In this document: positions 41,170 to 46,410 of the stretch, piece after piece
Layout of the letters: each line of letters begins with the position of its first letter
How positions within the stretch are numbered: position 1 is the first letter of the stretch
From: Terracoccus sp. 273MFTsu3.1
Lineage (GTDB): Bacteria; Actinomycetota; Actinomycetes; Actinomycetales; Dermatophilaceae
Reading direction: 5' to 3'
NCBI RefSeq assembly: GCF_000383675.1
Contig: NZ_KB911823.1
Location: forward strand, 187,095 to 251,094
DNA length: 64,000 nt
Program-made: the position numbers and the translations under genes
Notes under the pieces: model-generated
What the model was told of the DNA's origin: nothing
Databases searched by the model: none
Seen by the model: only the letters and a program-made list of their open reading frames with translations

Positions 41170-41685
41170 TCACTCGCGCAGCGGCGCCAGCAGGCGGTGG
41201 GGCTCCCGGAGCCTCGCGGACAGCGGGTTGGTGGGCGGGTCCGTGCCGGCTCCCGGCCCCGGCCGGGTCTCGAGCTCGGCCGCCGGCGGTGTCGCTCGGC
41301 ACACGGGGCAGCGCCCGGACACGTCGACGTCGACGTCGCAGGGCAAGTGGCGGAAGAGGCGCCGCGGACCCCGGGTGGACGTCGTGGCGTCCCCCCAGCG
41401 CATGAGCGCGTACACGGCCGGCCAGAGCGCCTCACCAGAGGGGGTGAGGACGTACGCGTCGTGGCCCCCGTGCATCCGGCGCTCGAGGACGCCCGCCTCG
41501 ACGAGCGAGCCGAGCCGTTGGGTGAGGACCGCCTTGGAGATGTCGAGGCGGCGCCGGAAGTCGCTGAACCGGGTGACGCCGAGGAAGGCGTCGCGCACGA
41601 GCAGCAGCGACCACCGCTCGCCGACGACCTCGAGTGCCTTGGCGAGCGAGCAGTCCTGTCCGCTGTAGTCCGTCCCGAGTGCCAT
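41170..41685 (-). CDS. HxlR-family transcriptional regulator
   Basis: A 171-residue HxlR winged-helix regulator. CSLAKALEVVGERWSLLLVRDAF (split across residues 12-34) and FSDFRRRLDISKAVLTQRL are hallmarks; a Cys near the N-terminus fits redox- or electrophile-sensing members. The C-terminus has an additional CDVDVDVSGRCPVCR stretch with a CxxC pair. It is divergent from the MFS efflux gene across a 57-bp gap holding the palindrome, so it is very likely its repressor. Confidence 0.9.
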   Translation of the reverse strand: MALGTDYSGQDCSLAKALEVVGERWSLLLVRDAFLGVTRFSDFRRRLDISKAVLTQRLGSLVEAGVLERRMHGGHDAYVLTPSGEALWPAVYALMRWGDATTSTRGPRRLFRHLPCDVDVDVSGRCPVCRATPPAAELETRPGPGAGTDPPTNPLSARLREPHRLLAPLRE

Positions 41686-41700
41686 GGAATGAATGTACGT

Positions 41701-41733
41701 CGTGGTCTGTTCAACAGACCAATCGAGACCACG
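41701..41733. promoter_or_regulatory. Palindromic operator between HxlR regulator and MFS exporter
   Basis: TGGTCTGTT-C-AACAGACCA (41703-41721) is a 19-bp palindrome with 9-bp arms. CGTGGTCT (41701-41708) also pairs with AGACCACG (41726-41733), giving three GTGGTCT/AGACC-type half-sites. It sits between the two divergent start codons. Confidence 0.75.
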
Positions 41734-41742
41734 GAGGACGTC

Positions 41743-43233
41743 ATGAGCCGCACCCGGCAGGCAGCACCCCGGACGACCCGCGGGACGGCCGCGCCCCCGA
41801 CCGCCGCGCCCCCGACCGCCGCGCCCTCGGCCGGCGAGCAGGCCCGCCGGGCGCTCGCCGTGGCCGCGGTGGGCACGGTCCTGGCCCTCGTCGCATTCAC
41901 GGCCCCGTTGGCCACGGTCGGATCGGTCACAGCGGCGCTGGGGTCGGACGTCGCCGGGCGCACGTGGATCCTCAGCTCGATGGGCATCGGGCTCGGAGCG
42001 GCTCTGCTCACGGCAGGGACCCTGGCCGACGACCGCGGTCGGCGTCGCGTCCTCGTGGGCGGGCTGGCCGTCCTCGCCGTGTCGAGCCTCGCCGCAGCCC
42101 TCGCCGGGGGCACGCTCGTGTTCGTCCTCGCCCGGGTCGCGCAGGGCATCGGCGCCGCGGCGGTCATCGCGGCGAGCCTCGGCCTCGTCGCTCACTGGTT
42201 CGAGCCCGGCCCGGCCCGGGCGGCCGCGAGCGGGGTGTGGGGTGCGAGCGTCGGAGGCGGCATCGCGCTCGGGCCGCTCGTCGCGAGCGCCTTCGACCGC
42301 TGGGCGTCGTGGCGCGACACGTATGTCGTCCTCGCCGTCGCGGCGCTCGTGCTGGCCGCGGTCGCGCGACGCCGGCTGGACGAGATCCGTTCGCACGAGC
42401 GTCGACCGCTCGACGCGCTGGGCGCGACGCTTCTCGCCGTCGCCACCTCGGCCTTCCTCGCGGCACTCGTCGAGGGTCGCAGCGGGTGGGGCCGGCCGGA
42501 GGTCCTAGTCCTGCTCGGTGTGGGCGCGGTCTCGACGGCCGGCTTCGTCGTCACCGAGCGGCGGACGTCCTTCCCGATGGTCGAGCCGTCCCTCTTCCGG
42601 GACGGCCGCTTCGTCGCCGCGAGTGCTGCTGCGCTGGCGACCGGTGCGGGCGCGATCGGCCTGCTCTCGTTCCTGCCCGGCTTCCTCGCCCTGGCGCTCG
42701 GTCTGCCTGCGACGACCTCCGCCGTCCTCTTCCTCGCCTGGTCCGGGACGAGCGTCGTGGCCGCCCTCGTGGCCCGCCGGCTCCCCGCCTCCTGGTCCGG
42801 CAGGGCGCAGCTGGCGGGTGGGCTCGTCGTCGTCGCCGCAGGTCAGCTGGCGCTGTCGGGGATCACGCCCGGGTCCTCGTGGACCCGGTTCCTGCCGGGC
42901 CTGCTCGTCGCCGGGGTGGGCAGCGGCGTCCTCAACGCGGCTCTCGGGCGTGAGGCCGTCGCGAGCGTGCCGGCGGGACGGGGCGGGATGGGAAGCGGCG
43001 CGAACAACTCGGCCCGCTACCTCGGGTCGTCCATCGGGGTCACGGTGGTCGCCGTCGTCGTCGCGGCGCACGCGGGGCCCGGTCCGGGAGCGTCCGGACT
43101 CGTGGCCGGCTGGAACGTCGCCGCCTGGGTGACCGCCGCCATCTCGCTCGTCGGGGCCGTCGTCGTGTGGGCCACGACCGTGACGGATCGACGACGGGCC
43201 GCCACGGACGCCGTCGGCGACCCGAGCCACTGA
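41743..43233 (+). CDS. MFS efflux transporter (DHA2-type, 14-TM)
   Basis: A 496-residue major facilitator with about 14 hydrophobic helices after a Pro/Ala-rich N-terminus of ~35 residues. GTLADDRGRRRVLVGG matches the loop between helices 2 and 3, and GVWGASVGGGIALGPLVAS matches motif C of drug/proton antiporters. The ATG at 41743 has GGAGG at 41733-41737. Control by the divergent HxlR regulator suggests a drug or electrophile exporter; the substrate is unknown. Confidence 0.9.
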   Translation: MSRTRQAAPRTTRGTAAPPTAAPPTAAPSAGEQARRALAVAAVGTVLALVAFTAPLATVGSVTAALGSDVAGRTWILSSMGIGLGAALLTAGTLADDRGRRRVLVGGLAVLAVSSLAAALAGGTLVFVLARVAQGIGAAAVIAASLGLVAHWFEPGPARAAASGVWGASVGGGIALGPLVASAFDRWASWRDTYVVLAVAALVLAAVARRRLDEIRSHERRPLDALGATLLAVATSAFLAALVEGRSGWGRPEVLVLLGVGAVSTAGFVVTERRTSFPMVEPSLFRDGRFVAASAAALATGAGAIGLLSFLPGFLALALGLPATTSAVLFLAWSGTSVVAALVARRLPASWSGRAQLAGGLVVVAAGQLALSGITPGSSWTRFLPGLLVAGVGSGVLNAALGREAVASVPAGRGGMGSGANNSARYLGSSIGVTVVAVVVAAHAGPGPGASGLVAGWNVAAWVTAAISLVGAVVVWATTVTDRRRAATDAVGDPSH

Positions 43234-43275
43234 CCGCTTGACCTTCGACCCGGTCGAGGGCCCAGTCTTCTCGTC

Positions 43276-44391
43276 ATGCCCGCCGACCCCGAGCCCGCTG
43301 CCGACACCCGCCTCCTGACGATCGGGGAGGTCGCCCGTCGGAGCGGCCTCACCGCCAGCGCCCTGCGCTTCTACGACCGTGAGGGCATGCTCGTGCCGGC
43401 AGACGTCGACGCCCTGACGGGCTACCGGAGGTATGCCGTCGCGCAGGTCCGCGCCGCCCGTCTCCTCGCGTCACTGCGCCGAGTCGGTATGCCGCTCGCC
43501 GAGGTCGCGCTCGTGCTCGACGAGGACGCGCGCGGTGCGTCCGGCACGGCCGCTGACGTCGTCACCGCCCACGAGCAGCGCCTCGTCGACGGGTTGGCGG
43601 ACGCCAGGCGCGAGATCGTGCGCACCCTGGCCCTCCTCGCAGAGCGCGAGCATGCTGGCTCGGAGGCCTGTCGGGTCGCGGTCCGTGCCGGAGAGCTCGC
43701 GGCGGCGCTGGCGTCCGTCCGGTTCGCCGTGGCGCCGGGGGAGCCGGCCGCGGGCGCCCCGGACGGGGTGGACCTGCGGGTGCTCACCGGCATCCTCGTC
43801 GAGGTGTGCGGGGAGGAGCTGCGGTGCGTCGCCACCGACCGCTACCGACTCGCGGTGGGCTGGGCTGCAATCGTCGGACTCCCGGCGGCCTCGCCGGACG
43901 CACCGCTGGCCGCGGTCGTCCCGATCGCGTGGGCTGACCGGGTCACCGACGCGTGCGCCGCCGTCGGTGCCGACTCCGAGGTCGTGCTCGAGCTGCGGCC
44001 GGGTCGGGTGGGCGCGACCGTGGACGGCGGACTGGTCGCGACACCGGTGCTCCCGGGCTCCTTCCCCGACTACCGGAGCATCGTGACCGCCGACGCGGGT
44101 CGCGAGGGGGTCGACGCCGCGGGCCTGCTGGCGCTCCTGCCGGTCGAGAGGCAGACGGTCGGGCTCGTCGTCCGCGACGGTTCCGTCCATGTGGCCGCCA
44201 GGGACGACGCAGGTGCCGACGACGTCGCCGACGTCCTCGTCGACCCGGAGTTCCTCCACGAGGCGCTCTCCGTCGCCGGTGCCCGGCCGACGCTCGTCCT
44301 CGACGGCCCGCACCGCCCCCTCGCCGTCCGCGGCGAGGGTGCCGGCACCTCGGTCCTCATGCCCGTCGCGGCCGAGTCCTCGGGTCCGTGA
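43276..44391 (+). CDS. MerR-type regulator fused to DNA sliding-clamp (DnaN-like) domains
   Basis: A 371-residue fusion. Residues ~13-80 are a MerR winged HTH (TIGEVARRSGLTASALRFYD, then TGYRRYAV), and ~95-128 a helical dimerisation arm. From ~133 the sequence resembles sliding-clamp domain 2: LTGILVEVCGEELRCVATDRYRLAV, split at 170-194. Domain 3 follows: LPGSFPDYRSIV (259-270), DPEFLHEAL (323-331) and the C-terminal DGPHRPLAVR...SVLMPV. Clamp domain 1 is absent. It may act as a DNA-bound regulator that docks clamp partners or senses replication; this is inference. The stop overlaps the next gene (GTGA). Confidence 0.85.
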   Translation: MPADPEPAADTRLLTIGEVARRSGLTASALRFYDREGMLVPADVDALTGYRRYAVAQVRAARLLASLRRVGMPLAEVALVLDEDARGASGTAADVVTAHEQRLVDGLADARREIVRTLALLAEREHAGSEACRVAVRAGELAAALASVRFAVAPGEPAAGAPDGVDLRVLTGILVEVCGEELRCVATDRYRLAVGWAAIVGLPAASPDAPLAAVVPIAWADRVTDACAAVGADSEVVLELRPGRVGATVDGGLVATPVLPGSFPDYRSIVTADAGREGVDAAGLLALLPVERQTVGLVVRDGSVHVAARDDAGADDVADVLVDPEFLHEALSVAGARPTLVLDGPHRPLAVRGEGAGTSVLMPVAAESSGP

Positions 44392-44726
44392 GCGTCCTCG
44401 TCCACGGGTGCCGCCGCTGCGGACACCAGCAGGCGTGGCACGAGTCCGGCAACGGCGGCTACACGCCGTGCCGGTGCTGCCGTGCGGGGACGTCCGACCC
44501 CGACCCGGCACCCACGCTGCTACCGACGTGGAGCTCGCCGGACGGCATACGCGAGCGGCTCTGGGAGCCCGGCAGCCGTCGCAACGCGGGCACGATGCAC
44601 GCGACGACGACGTGCGGGTGCGACGCCTGCCACGCGGCGTTCCGCGCGGAGCGCGTCGCCACGGACGGTGCGTCGGGCGGCGCGGCCCCGAGCTCGCAGA
44701 GCGGCCAGGCGCGGGCGGCGGGATGA
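44388..44726 (+). CDS. Cysteine-rich small protein coupled to the MerR-clamp fusion
   Basis: A 112-residue protein starting at GTG 44388, overlapping the fusion gene stop. Cysteines at 8, 11, 28, 30, 31, 76, 78 and 81 form CxxC, CxCC and CxCxxC groups, suggesting one or two zinc ribbons. Otherwise it is polar, with no membrane segment and a Gly/Ala/Ser-rich end. I do not recognise the family. The tight coupling suggests it acts with the MerR-clamp protein, perhaps as a zinc-bound partner. Confidence 0.65.
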   Translation: MSVLVHGCRRCGHQQAWHESGNGGYTPCRCCRAGTSDPDPAPTLLPTWSSPDGIRERLWEPGSRRNAGTMHATTTCGCDACHAAFRAERVATDGASGGAAPSSQSGQARAAG

Positions 44727-44811: not shown

Positions 44812-46410
44812 GTGATCGTCGCCACCGGGATCGAGCTGCGTGCCGGGGCGCGCCTGCTCGTCGAGGACGCCAGCTTCAGGATCGACGCGGGTGACCGCAT
44901 CGGGCTCGTGGGACGCAACGGTGCCGGCAAGACGACCCTGACCAAGGTGCTCGCCGGGGAAGGCCAGCCGGCCGCCGGGACCGTGACCCGCACGGGCGCC
45001 GTCGGCTACCTGCCGCAGGACCCCCGCACGGGCGACCTCGACATGCTCGCCCGCGACCGCATCCTCTCCGCCCGCGGGTTGGACGCCATCGTGCGCCAGC
45101 GGTCCGAGGCCGAGGCGCGGATGGGCAGCGACGACGAGCTGGTGCGGGACAAGGCGATGCGCGCCTACACCCGTCTCGAGGTGGAGTTCGAGGCTCAGGG
45201 CGGGTATGCCGCCGAGTCCGAGGCCGCGTCCATCGCGAGCGCCCTCAACCTCGAGGAGCGCATCCTCGGCCAACCGCTCGGCACCCTCTCGGGTGGCCAG
45301 CGTCGCCGCGTCGAGCTGTCACGGATCCTCTTCTCCGGCAACGAGACCCTGCTCCTCGACGAGCCGACCAACCACCTCGACGCCGACTCGATCATCTGGC
45401 TGAGGGAGTACCTCCGCGCCTACAAGGGCGGGCTCATCATCATCAGCCACGACGCCGAGATGCTCGATGCCGTCGTCAACAAGGTCTACCACCTCGACGC
45501 GAACCGCTCGGCGCTCGACGTCTACAACGTCAGCTGGAAGACCTATCTCCAGGCGCGCGAGACGGATGAGAAGCGCCGCCGCCGCGAGCTGCAGAACGCC
45601 CAGAAGAAGGCCGGCGCGCTCATGGCGCAGGCCGACAAGATGCGCGCCAAGGCGACCAAGGCGACGGCGGCCCAGAACATGGCCAAACGCGCCGAGCGAC
45701 TCCTCGCCGGCGTCGAGGGCGAGCGGGTCCAGGACAAGGTGGCCAAGCTCCGCTTCCCCAAGCCGGCCGCCTGCGGCAAGACGCCCCTGCGGGCGTCCGG
45801 GCTCTCCCGCTCCTACGGCTCGCTCGAGGTCTTCACCGACGTGGACCTCGCCATCGACCGCGGCAGCAAGGTCGTGGTGCTCGGTCTCAACGGTGCCGGC
45901 AAGACGACGCTGCTGCGGATGCTCGCGGGCGTCGACACCCCCGACACCGGCGAGGTCGAGCCCGGTCACGGGCTGCGCCTCGGCTACTACGCCCAGGAGC
46001 ACGAGAACCTCGACGTCGGTCGCACGGTCCTCGAGAACATGAAGTCGGCCGCGCCGGAGCTCGGCGAGACCGAGGTGCGCAAGGTGCTCGGCTCCTTCCT
46101 CTTCTCGGGCGACGACGTGCACAAGCCCGCGGGCGTGCTCTCGGGCGGGGAGAAGACGCGGCTGTCGCTCGCCCTGCTCGTCGTCTCGGCGGCCAACGTG
46201 CTGCTCCTCGACGAGCCCACCAACAACCTCGACCCCGCCTCACGGGCCGAGATCCTCGGGGCCCTGTCGACCTTCGAGGGTGCCGTCGTGCTCGTCACCC
46301 ACGACGAAGGGGCCGTCGAGGCGCTCGAGCCCGAGCGCATCCTCCTGCTGCCCGATGGCGTCGAGGACCTCTGGGGCCCGGACTACCTGGACCTCATCTC
46401 GCTGGCCTGA
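44812..46410 (+). CDS. ABC-F family ATPase
   Basis: A 532-residue ABC-F protein (ribosome-bound translation factor or antibiotic-protection type; Rv1473 equivalent). It has two ATPase domains and no membrane region: Walker A sites GRNGAGKTT and GLNGAGKTT, signatures LSGGQRRR and LSGGEKTR, and the linker between them is rich in Lys/Arg (AQNMAKRAERLL). ABC-F proteins act at the ribosomal E site. The GTG start has AGGAGG 6 nt upstream and a TAGACT -10 at 44755-44760. No drug-specific signature can be assigned. Confidence 0.93.
   Translation: MIVATGIELRAGARLLVEDASFRIDAGDRIGLVGRNGAGKTTLTKVLAGEGQPAAGTVTRTGAVGYLPQDPRTGDLDMLARDRILSARGLDAIVRQRSEAEARMGSDDELVRDKAMRAYTRLEVEFEAQGGYAAESEAASIASALNLEERILGQPLGTLSGGQRRRVELSRILFSGNETLLLDEPTNHLDADSIIWLREYLRAYKGGLIIISHDAEMLDAVVNKVYHLDANRSALDVYNVSWKTYLQARETDEKRRRRELQNAQKKAGALMAQADKMRAKATKATAAQNMAKRAERLLAGVEGERVQDKVAKLRFPKPAACGKTPLRASGLSRSYGSLEVFTDVDLAIDRGSKVVVLGLNGAGKTTLLRMLAGVDTPDTGEVEPGHGLRLGYYAQEHENLDVGRTVLENMKSAAPELGETEVRKVLGSFLFSGDDVHKPAGVLSGGEKTRLSLALLVVSAANVLLLDEPTNNLDPASRAEILGALSTFEGAVVLVTHDEGAVEALEPERILLLPDGVEDLWGPDYLDLISLA

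Follow-up and report, generated by a model that had tools for sequence, protein, structure and literature searches.

A MerR-type regulator fused to sliding-clamp domains 2 and 3 in Terracoccus and other actinobacteria, a possible sensor of clamp-binding compounds

Results

The fusion protein and its neighbours

The window analysed here, 64,000 nt from Terracoccus sp. 273MFTsu3.1, contains an ORF of 371 aa (43276..44391, + strand) encoding a MerR-type head joined to sliding-clamp domains 2 and 3. The winged-HTH head was assigned to residues 13-83 (43312..43524, +) from a Pfam MerR_1 match covering residues 15-83 (3e-14). It is followed by a long helix, residues 89-126 (43540..43653, +), observed in the secondary structure of the predicted monomer model and, by analogy with the MerR family, predicted to serve in dimerisation. 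Clamp domain 2 (residues 130-266; 43663..44073, +) and clamp domain 3 (residues 274-366; 44095..44373, +) make up the remainder, with borders set by eye from the alignment. The first-pass annotation, made from the sequence, had read a MerR head and clamp domains 2 and 3 in one frame, and this was confirmed by Pfam, phmmer and the structural model. Pfam placed the DnaN central domain on residues 167-265 (2.2e-9), phmmer matched the protein to solved DnaN chains (best 1.7e-9), and the predicted fold matched clamp domains 2 and 3. The same annotation had considered clamp domain 1 to be missing, which was borne out by the alignment of model residues 130-366 with residues 124-366 of E. coli DnaN: domain 3 is complete through its last strands, domain 1 is absent, and the three-domain subunit of DnaN is not present. 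The fusion is real.

The clamp part shares 28% identity with the organism's own DnaN and 18% with E. coli DnaN, and a normal dnaN (a 389-aa open frame) was the one match for the C-terminal clamp family in the genome of the window. The TipAS domain (PF07739) gave no Pfam match in the window fusion at E up to 1 and was absent from the Pfam table of the family members. A library of anti-phage defence proteins was matched through the MerR head only (mad1, 9.5e-11), and the charge of the clamp half was not informative.

The fusion stop codon is overlapped by 4 nt by a small Cys-rich ORF of 112 aa (44388..44726, +), which had no Pfam match at 0.01 and was found at the same place in six of nine relative loci searched (64-78% identity), the nine representing eight distinct genomes, as L007 and L032 come from the same one. 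Just downstream lies 44812-46410 (+), which encodes a putative ABC-F type ATPase. On the other side is an MFS transporter gene (41743-43233, +; Pfam MFS_1, 7.2e-38), and next to it, within 41170-42396 (-), a divergent ORF that presumably encodes an HxlR-like regulator; a palindrome-like stretch was seen by eye between the two. The MFS gene was considered as a target of the operator described below and dropped because it lies upstream of that operator and has the HxlR-like ORF divergent to it; the two probably form a separate efflux unit. The flanks of 74 fusion loci (those of the best 80 matches with the gene called) showed mostly genus-level synteny, with a serS-type gene adjoining the fusion in Micromonospora and a LysE-type gene in Actinoplanes, and the neighbourhood was for that reason rejected as a functional clue. 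The only partner shared across genera was a small TPR protein at +1, in 8 of the 74 loci.

Distribution of the family

Within the genus of the window, the fusion was present in six of nine genomes and was not found in G067, G136 and the 74% complete G148. Among named genomes, the best 80 matches came from Humibacillus (74% identity), Streptomyces, Kitasatospora, Micromonospora, Actinoplanes, Pseudonocardia, Blastococcus, Amycolatopsis, Nocardia and others. Of 394 genomes sampled across the class, 31 gave a match with an E value no higher than 2.7e-70, and one of these matches is partial. The protein is close to universal in Micromonospora (the genus of G549), where 56 of 61 genomes had a single full-length match. 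In the others, the fusion of G591 aligns through with an insertion, that of G621 reads in two frames, G599 has a divergent copy only, and no match was obtained in G624 and G632. Since the G632 assembly is also without a match to serS, the usual neighbour, G632 was not counted as a true absence.

Two alignments were used. A1 holds the window copy and 27 others from 149 genomes of the same taxonomic family; it omits L020, which is truncated at a contig end, and L029, which encodes a different MerR protein, and further full-length matches without a locus in those 149 genomes lie outside it. A2 (n = 90) combines the 28 sequences of A1 with 62 of the best 80 loci, the other 18 being near-duplicates, cut, frame-broken, of doubtful start or redundant. 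A MerR/MerR_1 match was obtained for all 90 members. A second subfamily (SALRFYDDC..., many members ending VRSADQG.FTT.VMPV) comprises L022, L025-L028, L030, L031, L095, L100, L107-L109 and L335 and carries the related operator TTGACCTTC... The excluded protein of L029 (811-1863, -) is a different MerR fusion, its C-terminal part probably resembling a Clp N-terminal domain.

Conservation of the clamp-motif pocket

The pocket of DnaN was located in the window fusion by alignment as T187-D188-R189 (43834..43842, +; E. coli T172-G174), P264 (44065..44067, +; E. coli P242) and M362-P363 (44359..44364, +; the same numbers in E. coli). These positions are nearly invariant in the family: the equivalents of E. 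coli T172, D173 and G174 are T in 87, D in 90 and R in 90 of the 90 members, and those of P242, M362 and P363 are P in 89, M in 88 and P in 90. An R at the G174 position is also present in the own DnaN of the window genome. An assumed set of 14 pocket residues had a mean column entropy of 0.69 (p = 5e-5). W occupies the E. coli R176 position in 7 of 90 aligned proteins.

Residues named as lining the pocket in one source are V247, P242, R152, R246, M362 and T172 (PMC3335792), and a second describes M362 of E. coli DnaN as a gate between subsites and R365 as a hydrogen-bonding contact of mycoplanecin A (PMC10817943). For the seven residues named in these two sources (M362 and R365 from the latter), the mean column entropy was 1.27 vs 2.12 for all columns (p = 0.008), although the fusion sequences are related and such family statistics make them look more independent than they are. 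The family does not retain E. coli R152 and R246, and the R365 position is Arg in 64 and Ala in 16 of 89 members, the window fusion and its closest relatives being among those with Ala. By alignment, the pocket is kept in outline, with one drug contact lost in the window clade. The binding of clamp-motif proteins, which the first-pass annotation had suggested, may fit such a conserved pocket.

The operator and the promoter of the fusion gene

MerR operators carry a dyad between the -35 and -10 elements, which are held apart by an over-long spacer of 19-20 bp. The promoter of the window fusion has this form as judged by sequence: a -35 element TTGACC (43238..43243, +) and a -10-like element CAGTCT (43263..43268, +) are separated by 19 bp that include a 9+1+9 dyad with eight of nine positions paired (43242..43260, +). 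The start codon lies 7 bp beyond the -10-like element, giving a leaderless-like arrangement. The same layout, a dyad framed by TTGACC-19 bp-CAnnnT and close to the start codon, was found at 104 of 108 fusion genes with up to 5 mismatches, compared with 1 of 108 for the reversed pattern and 0-1 for shuffles, and in 77 of the 104 the called start follows the TTGACC at a distance of 37-39 bp.

With up to 3 mismatches allowed, the single copy of the operator in the genome of the window is the one at the promoter of the fusion itself, as would be expected of an autoregulated gene of the TipA class. A looser pattern gave 221 matches in this genome vs 23 for its reversed control and was considered too loose to use. 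A single 3-mismatch match was found in G136, the genome of the genus that is without the fusion, and extra 3-mismatch matches were found in two other genomes of the genus. The fusion is predicted to bind this operator and to activate its own gene, and another MerR protein may share the same operator. Transcription from it would read the fusion and the small Cys-rich ORF, and, since the own genome has this one operator, what it controls is likely to be the fusion protein together with the coupled small ORF.

A candidate internal start

In 28 of 90 genes, a Shine-Dalgarno (SD) 5-mer followed by an in-frame ATG lies where the head meets the clamp, whereas each of 12 other 27-residue windows had this in 0-1 of 90. 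With slightly different window limits, 46 genes have an ATG in the linker, and an SD accompanies it in 29 of them vs 20.8 +- 2.3 when the codons before it were shuffled among synonyms (maximum 28 in 2000). When GTG was admitted, the 5-mer rule gave 34 in the 120-134 bin and no more than 14 in any other bin, and a looser SD rule gave 52 of 90 genes. It is predicted from these patterns that a clamp-only short form is made in many relatives; neither the window fusion nor its closest relatives have an SD with ATG in the linker.

Operator-linked genes in Micromonospora and other genera

Twenty-nine genomes of the Micromonospora genus were scanned with the pattern TTGACCCTCGANCNGGTNGAGNNNNCANNNT at up to 2 mismatches. 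This yielded 70 sites in 27 genomes, and the reversed pattern yielded none in any of the 29. The sites were assigned to 26 fusion genes (one per genome with a matching fusion), 19 MFS exporters, 17 copies of the oriC edge, 4 TPR genes, 3 YunG genes and 1 other. Assignment was by sequence for 50 sites, chosen mostly for lying away from the fusion: 18 fusion genes, 14 and 3 MFS exporters of two types, 4 TPR, 3 YunG, 7 oriC edge and 1 other. The other 20 comprise 8 fusion and 10 oriC-edge sites assigned by coordinates and 2 MFS exporters assigned by an earlier reading. For 4 of the 17 oriC-edge assignments (L293, L305, L308 and L331), the basis is DnaA-box words alone. The earlier reading of Micromonosporaceae sites had given the same gene classes. 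The two genomes free of sites are G624, which has no fusion, and G599, which has the divergent copy only. G632 keeps two sites, and its use as a genome with sites and without the fusion was dropped, its serS neighbour being missing too.

Pfam confirmed MFS_1, TPR and YunG for representatives of the operator-linked genes, with L333 the one tested among the six YunG-like loci. The main exporter type, one TPR type and two of the three YunG genes start about 37-40 bp after TTGACC, as the fusions do, and the other TPR type starts about 64 bp after it. All eight TPR proteins encoded directly after fusions in other genera matched the operator-linked TPR proteins (E 5e-56 to 2e-14 against L304), so that this gene order, seen in 8 of 74 loci, forms an independent link to the operator-linked TPR family. 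The eight loci are L060, L061, L087, L095, L100, L102, L103 and L108. Small TPR proteins with their own operator were seen at L208, L215, L285, L304, L316 and L319, and YunG-like proteins under the same or a similar operator at L206, L207, L218, L324, L332 and L333.

Outside the genus, a similar pattern was matched in 31 of 35 genomes. Of 39 such sites 30 were annotated, and 27 of these were self sites, with TPR, YunG and one unassigned site making up the remainder. Exporter sites outside Micromonosporaceae were seen neither among these 30 annotated sites nor in the operator scan of the window genome. A toxic ligand for the fusion is suggested by the Micromonospora exporters.

The site at the oriC edge is an operator-like promoter 688-705 bp before dnaN, located after the preceding gene (called dnaA by position) and before the DnaA boxes (L227). 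The L227 copy, about 690 bp before dnaN, has a MerR-type 19-bp spacer and reads through oriC towards dnaN. With up to 5 mismatches allowed, the promoter was found in 14 of 16 Micromonospora/Verrucosispora genomes, and with up to 6 in 28 of 34 other genomes; at the conserved place it was found in none of 11 Actinoplanes-type and Asanoa genomes, one of which had a 5-mismatch match elsewhere. The right half-site is decayed in many copies, including that of G632, and for this reason control of the oriC edge by the regulator, with an action of the fusion on this promoter, is only suggested.

Discussion

The architecture, fold, pocket conservation, operator, operator-linked genes and internal SD with ATG were obtained by computation. 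The operator, the apparent autoregulation, the exporter sites of Micromonospora and the internal start suggest a TipA-like sensor and sequestration system, and the combination of a MerR head and a clamp part with apparent switching of the own gene and, in Micromonospora, of exporters suggests that clamp-binding molecules or antibiotics may be what is sensed. The best explanation, to which we assign about an even chance, is an autoregulated one-component MerR sensor of the TipA/AlbA kind, whose ligand half consists of captured DnaN domains 2 and 3 and whose leading candidate ligand is a clamp-targeting antibiotic. A fusion dimer would sit on the 19-bp-spacer promoter; entry of the ligand into the clamp-motif pocket would then lead it to activate its own leaderless-like gene, and the additional clamp halves so produced would trap the ligand. 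In Micromonospora the fusion would also activate the MFS exporters as well as the TPR and YunG genes, and the promoter at the oriC/dnaN edge may be another of its targets; in many relatives outside the window clade the internal start would supply a clamp-only short form, as with TipAS and AlbAS. The DNA binding, the activation, the short form and the ligand are what we infer here. The fuller proposal of a target-mimic sensor, in which a decoy clamp traps clamp-directed antibiotics, amplifies itself and switches on the Micromonospora exporters and the oriC/dnaN-edge promoter, is offered tentatively as somewhat short of an even chance.

This assignment is supported by likeness to known systems. 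The TipA class (TipAL/TipAS, SkgA) combines a MerR head with a C-terminal ligand trap, self-activation and a second translation start that yields the trap alone; in the fusion family the operator at the own gene and, in relatives, the predicted internal start would correspond to these. BmrR-type MerR regulators have a MerR head and a drug-binding end, which in their case is a GyrI-like ligand domain and not a clamp. One source describes TipA as a minimal autoregulated system in which a long form regulates and a short form traps the ligand (PMC7762955), and another describes AlbA of Klebsiella as a MerR-like protein with long and short forms that sequesters a peptide antibiotic (PMC6078987). 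The trap of TipA is TipAS (PF07739) and that of AlbA is helical and TipAS-like, whereas that of the fusion has the sliding-clamp fold; moreover, the fusion's ligand is a candidate only, and the window copy is without the internal start. With DnaN the fusion shares domains 2 and 3 and the pocket motifs, but it has no domain 1 and carries a fused DNA-binding head. Griselimycin and mycoplanecin bind the DnaN pocket, and an additional dnaN is present in the gene clusters for both (PMC10817943); a peptide antibiotic of this type is therefore the leading candidate ligand, which is not a finding. The self-resistance clamps GriR and MypR resemble the fusion as extra clamp-type proteins linked to griselimycin and mycoplanecin, but they are described as DnaN-encoding genes within biosynthetic gene clusters (PMC10817943), and the fusion is a regulator.

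Several observations do not sit well with the TipA-like sensor. The window clade is without the internal start, the exporter sites and the drug-contact Arg365, and outside Micromonospora nearly all sites are self. The near-universal presence of the fusion in Micromonospora and the similar counts of oriC-edge and exporter sites could suit a housekeeping role. An endogenous input, in which the pocket binds the cell's own clamp-motif proteins or peptides so that the fusion reads the free clamp-binding proteins, and with them the state of replication or of DNA damage, and acts back on its own gene and on the Micromonospora oriC/dnaN edge, draws on that presence (56 of 61 genomes), on the conserved pocket and on the promoter before dnaN in 14 of 16 and 28 of 34 genomes. 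It is made all the more serious by the oriC edge accounting for 17 of the 44 non-self sites in Micromonospora, close to the number at exporters; we nevertheless consider it unlikely, as exporters form as large a class (19 of 44), many oriC copies have a degenerate right half-site, and almost every site sampled in other lineages is a self site. Replication status, named as an input in the first-pass annotation, may be one of several, and the oriC/dnaN-edge promoter of Micromonospora fits it.

Recruitment of the clamp fold as a generic domain for an unrelated small molecule, with the motifs kept for fold stability, would account for the exporters among the operator-linked genes and for the drift of polar residues in the pocket (R152, R246 and partly R365); it is quite unlikely given that the equivalents of T172, P242, M362 and P363 are near-invariant while most of the domain varies. 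The first-pass annotation had also raised a ring or half-ring with DnaN. A hetero-ring acting directly on replication would be served by a domain 3 that is present through its last strands, but domain 1 is absent, the window protein has a gap where it aligns with I272/L273 of E. coli DnaN, residues of the ring interface, and the features conserved are the promoter and the pocket; this idea found no support and is very improbable. That the fusion arose by chance or has decayed without function is hardly credible: it was not found in three of nine genomes of the window's genus, but the conservation of frame, pocket and operator across many actinobacterial genera already contradicts it. On balance, the earlier interpretation is partly supported.

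No description of a MerR-clamp fusion or regulator was found in the literature searched, namely titles and the beginnings of abstracts, mostly outside subscription journals; database entries may show the fusion architecture. The one-component MerR sensor is of a known kind, and the clamp as effector domain is new, as are the operator across the family, the operator-linked genes of Micromonospora and the internal start. If the TipA-like sensor is correct, actinobacteria would possess, widely spread among them, a sensor dedicated to ligands of the replication clamp, which is of interest as a tuberculosis drug target. Clamp-binding compounds would then be a common natural threat, the fusion would offer a ready reporter for finding them, and it would show how a sensor can arise as a copy of an essential target. 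With an endogenous input, the fusion would instead be a one-component switch that reads clamp-binding proteins.
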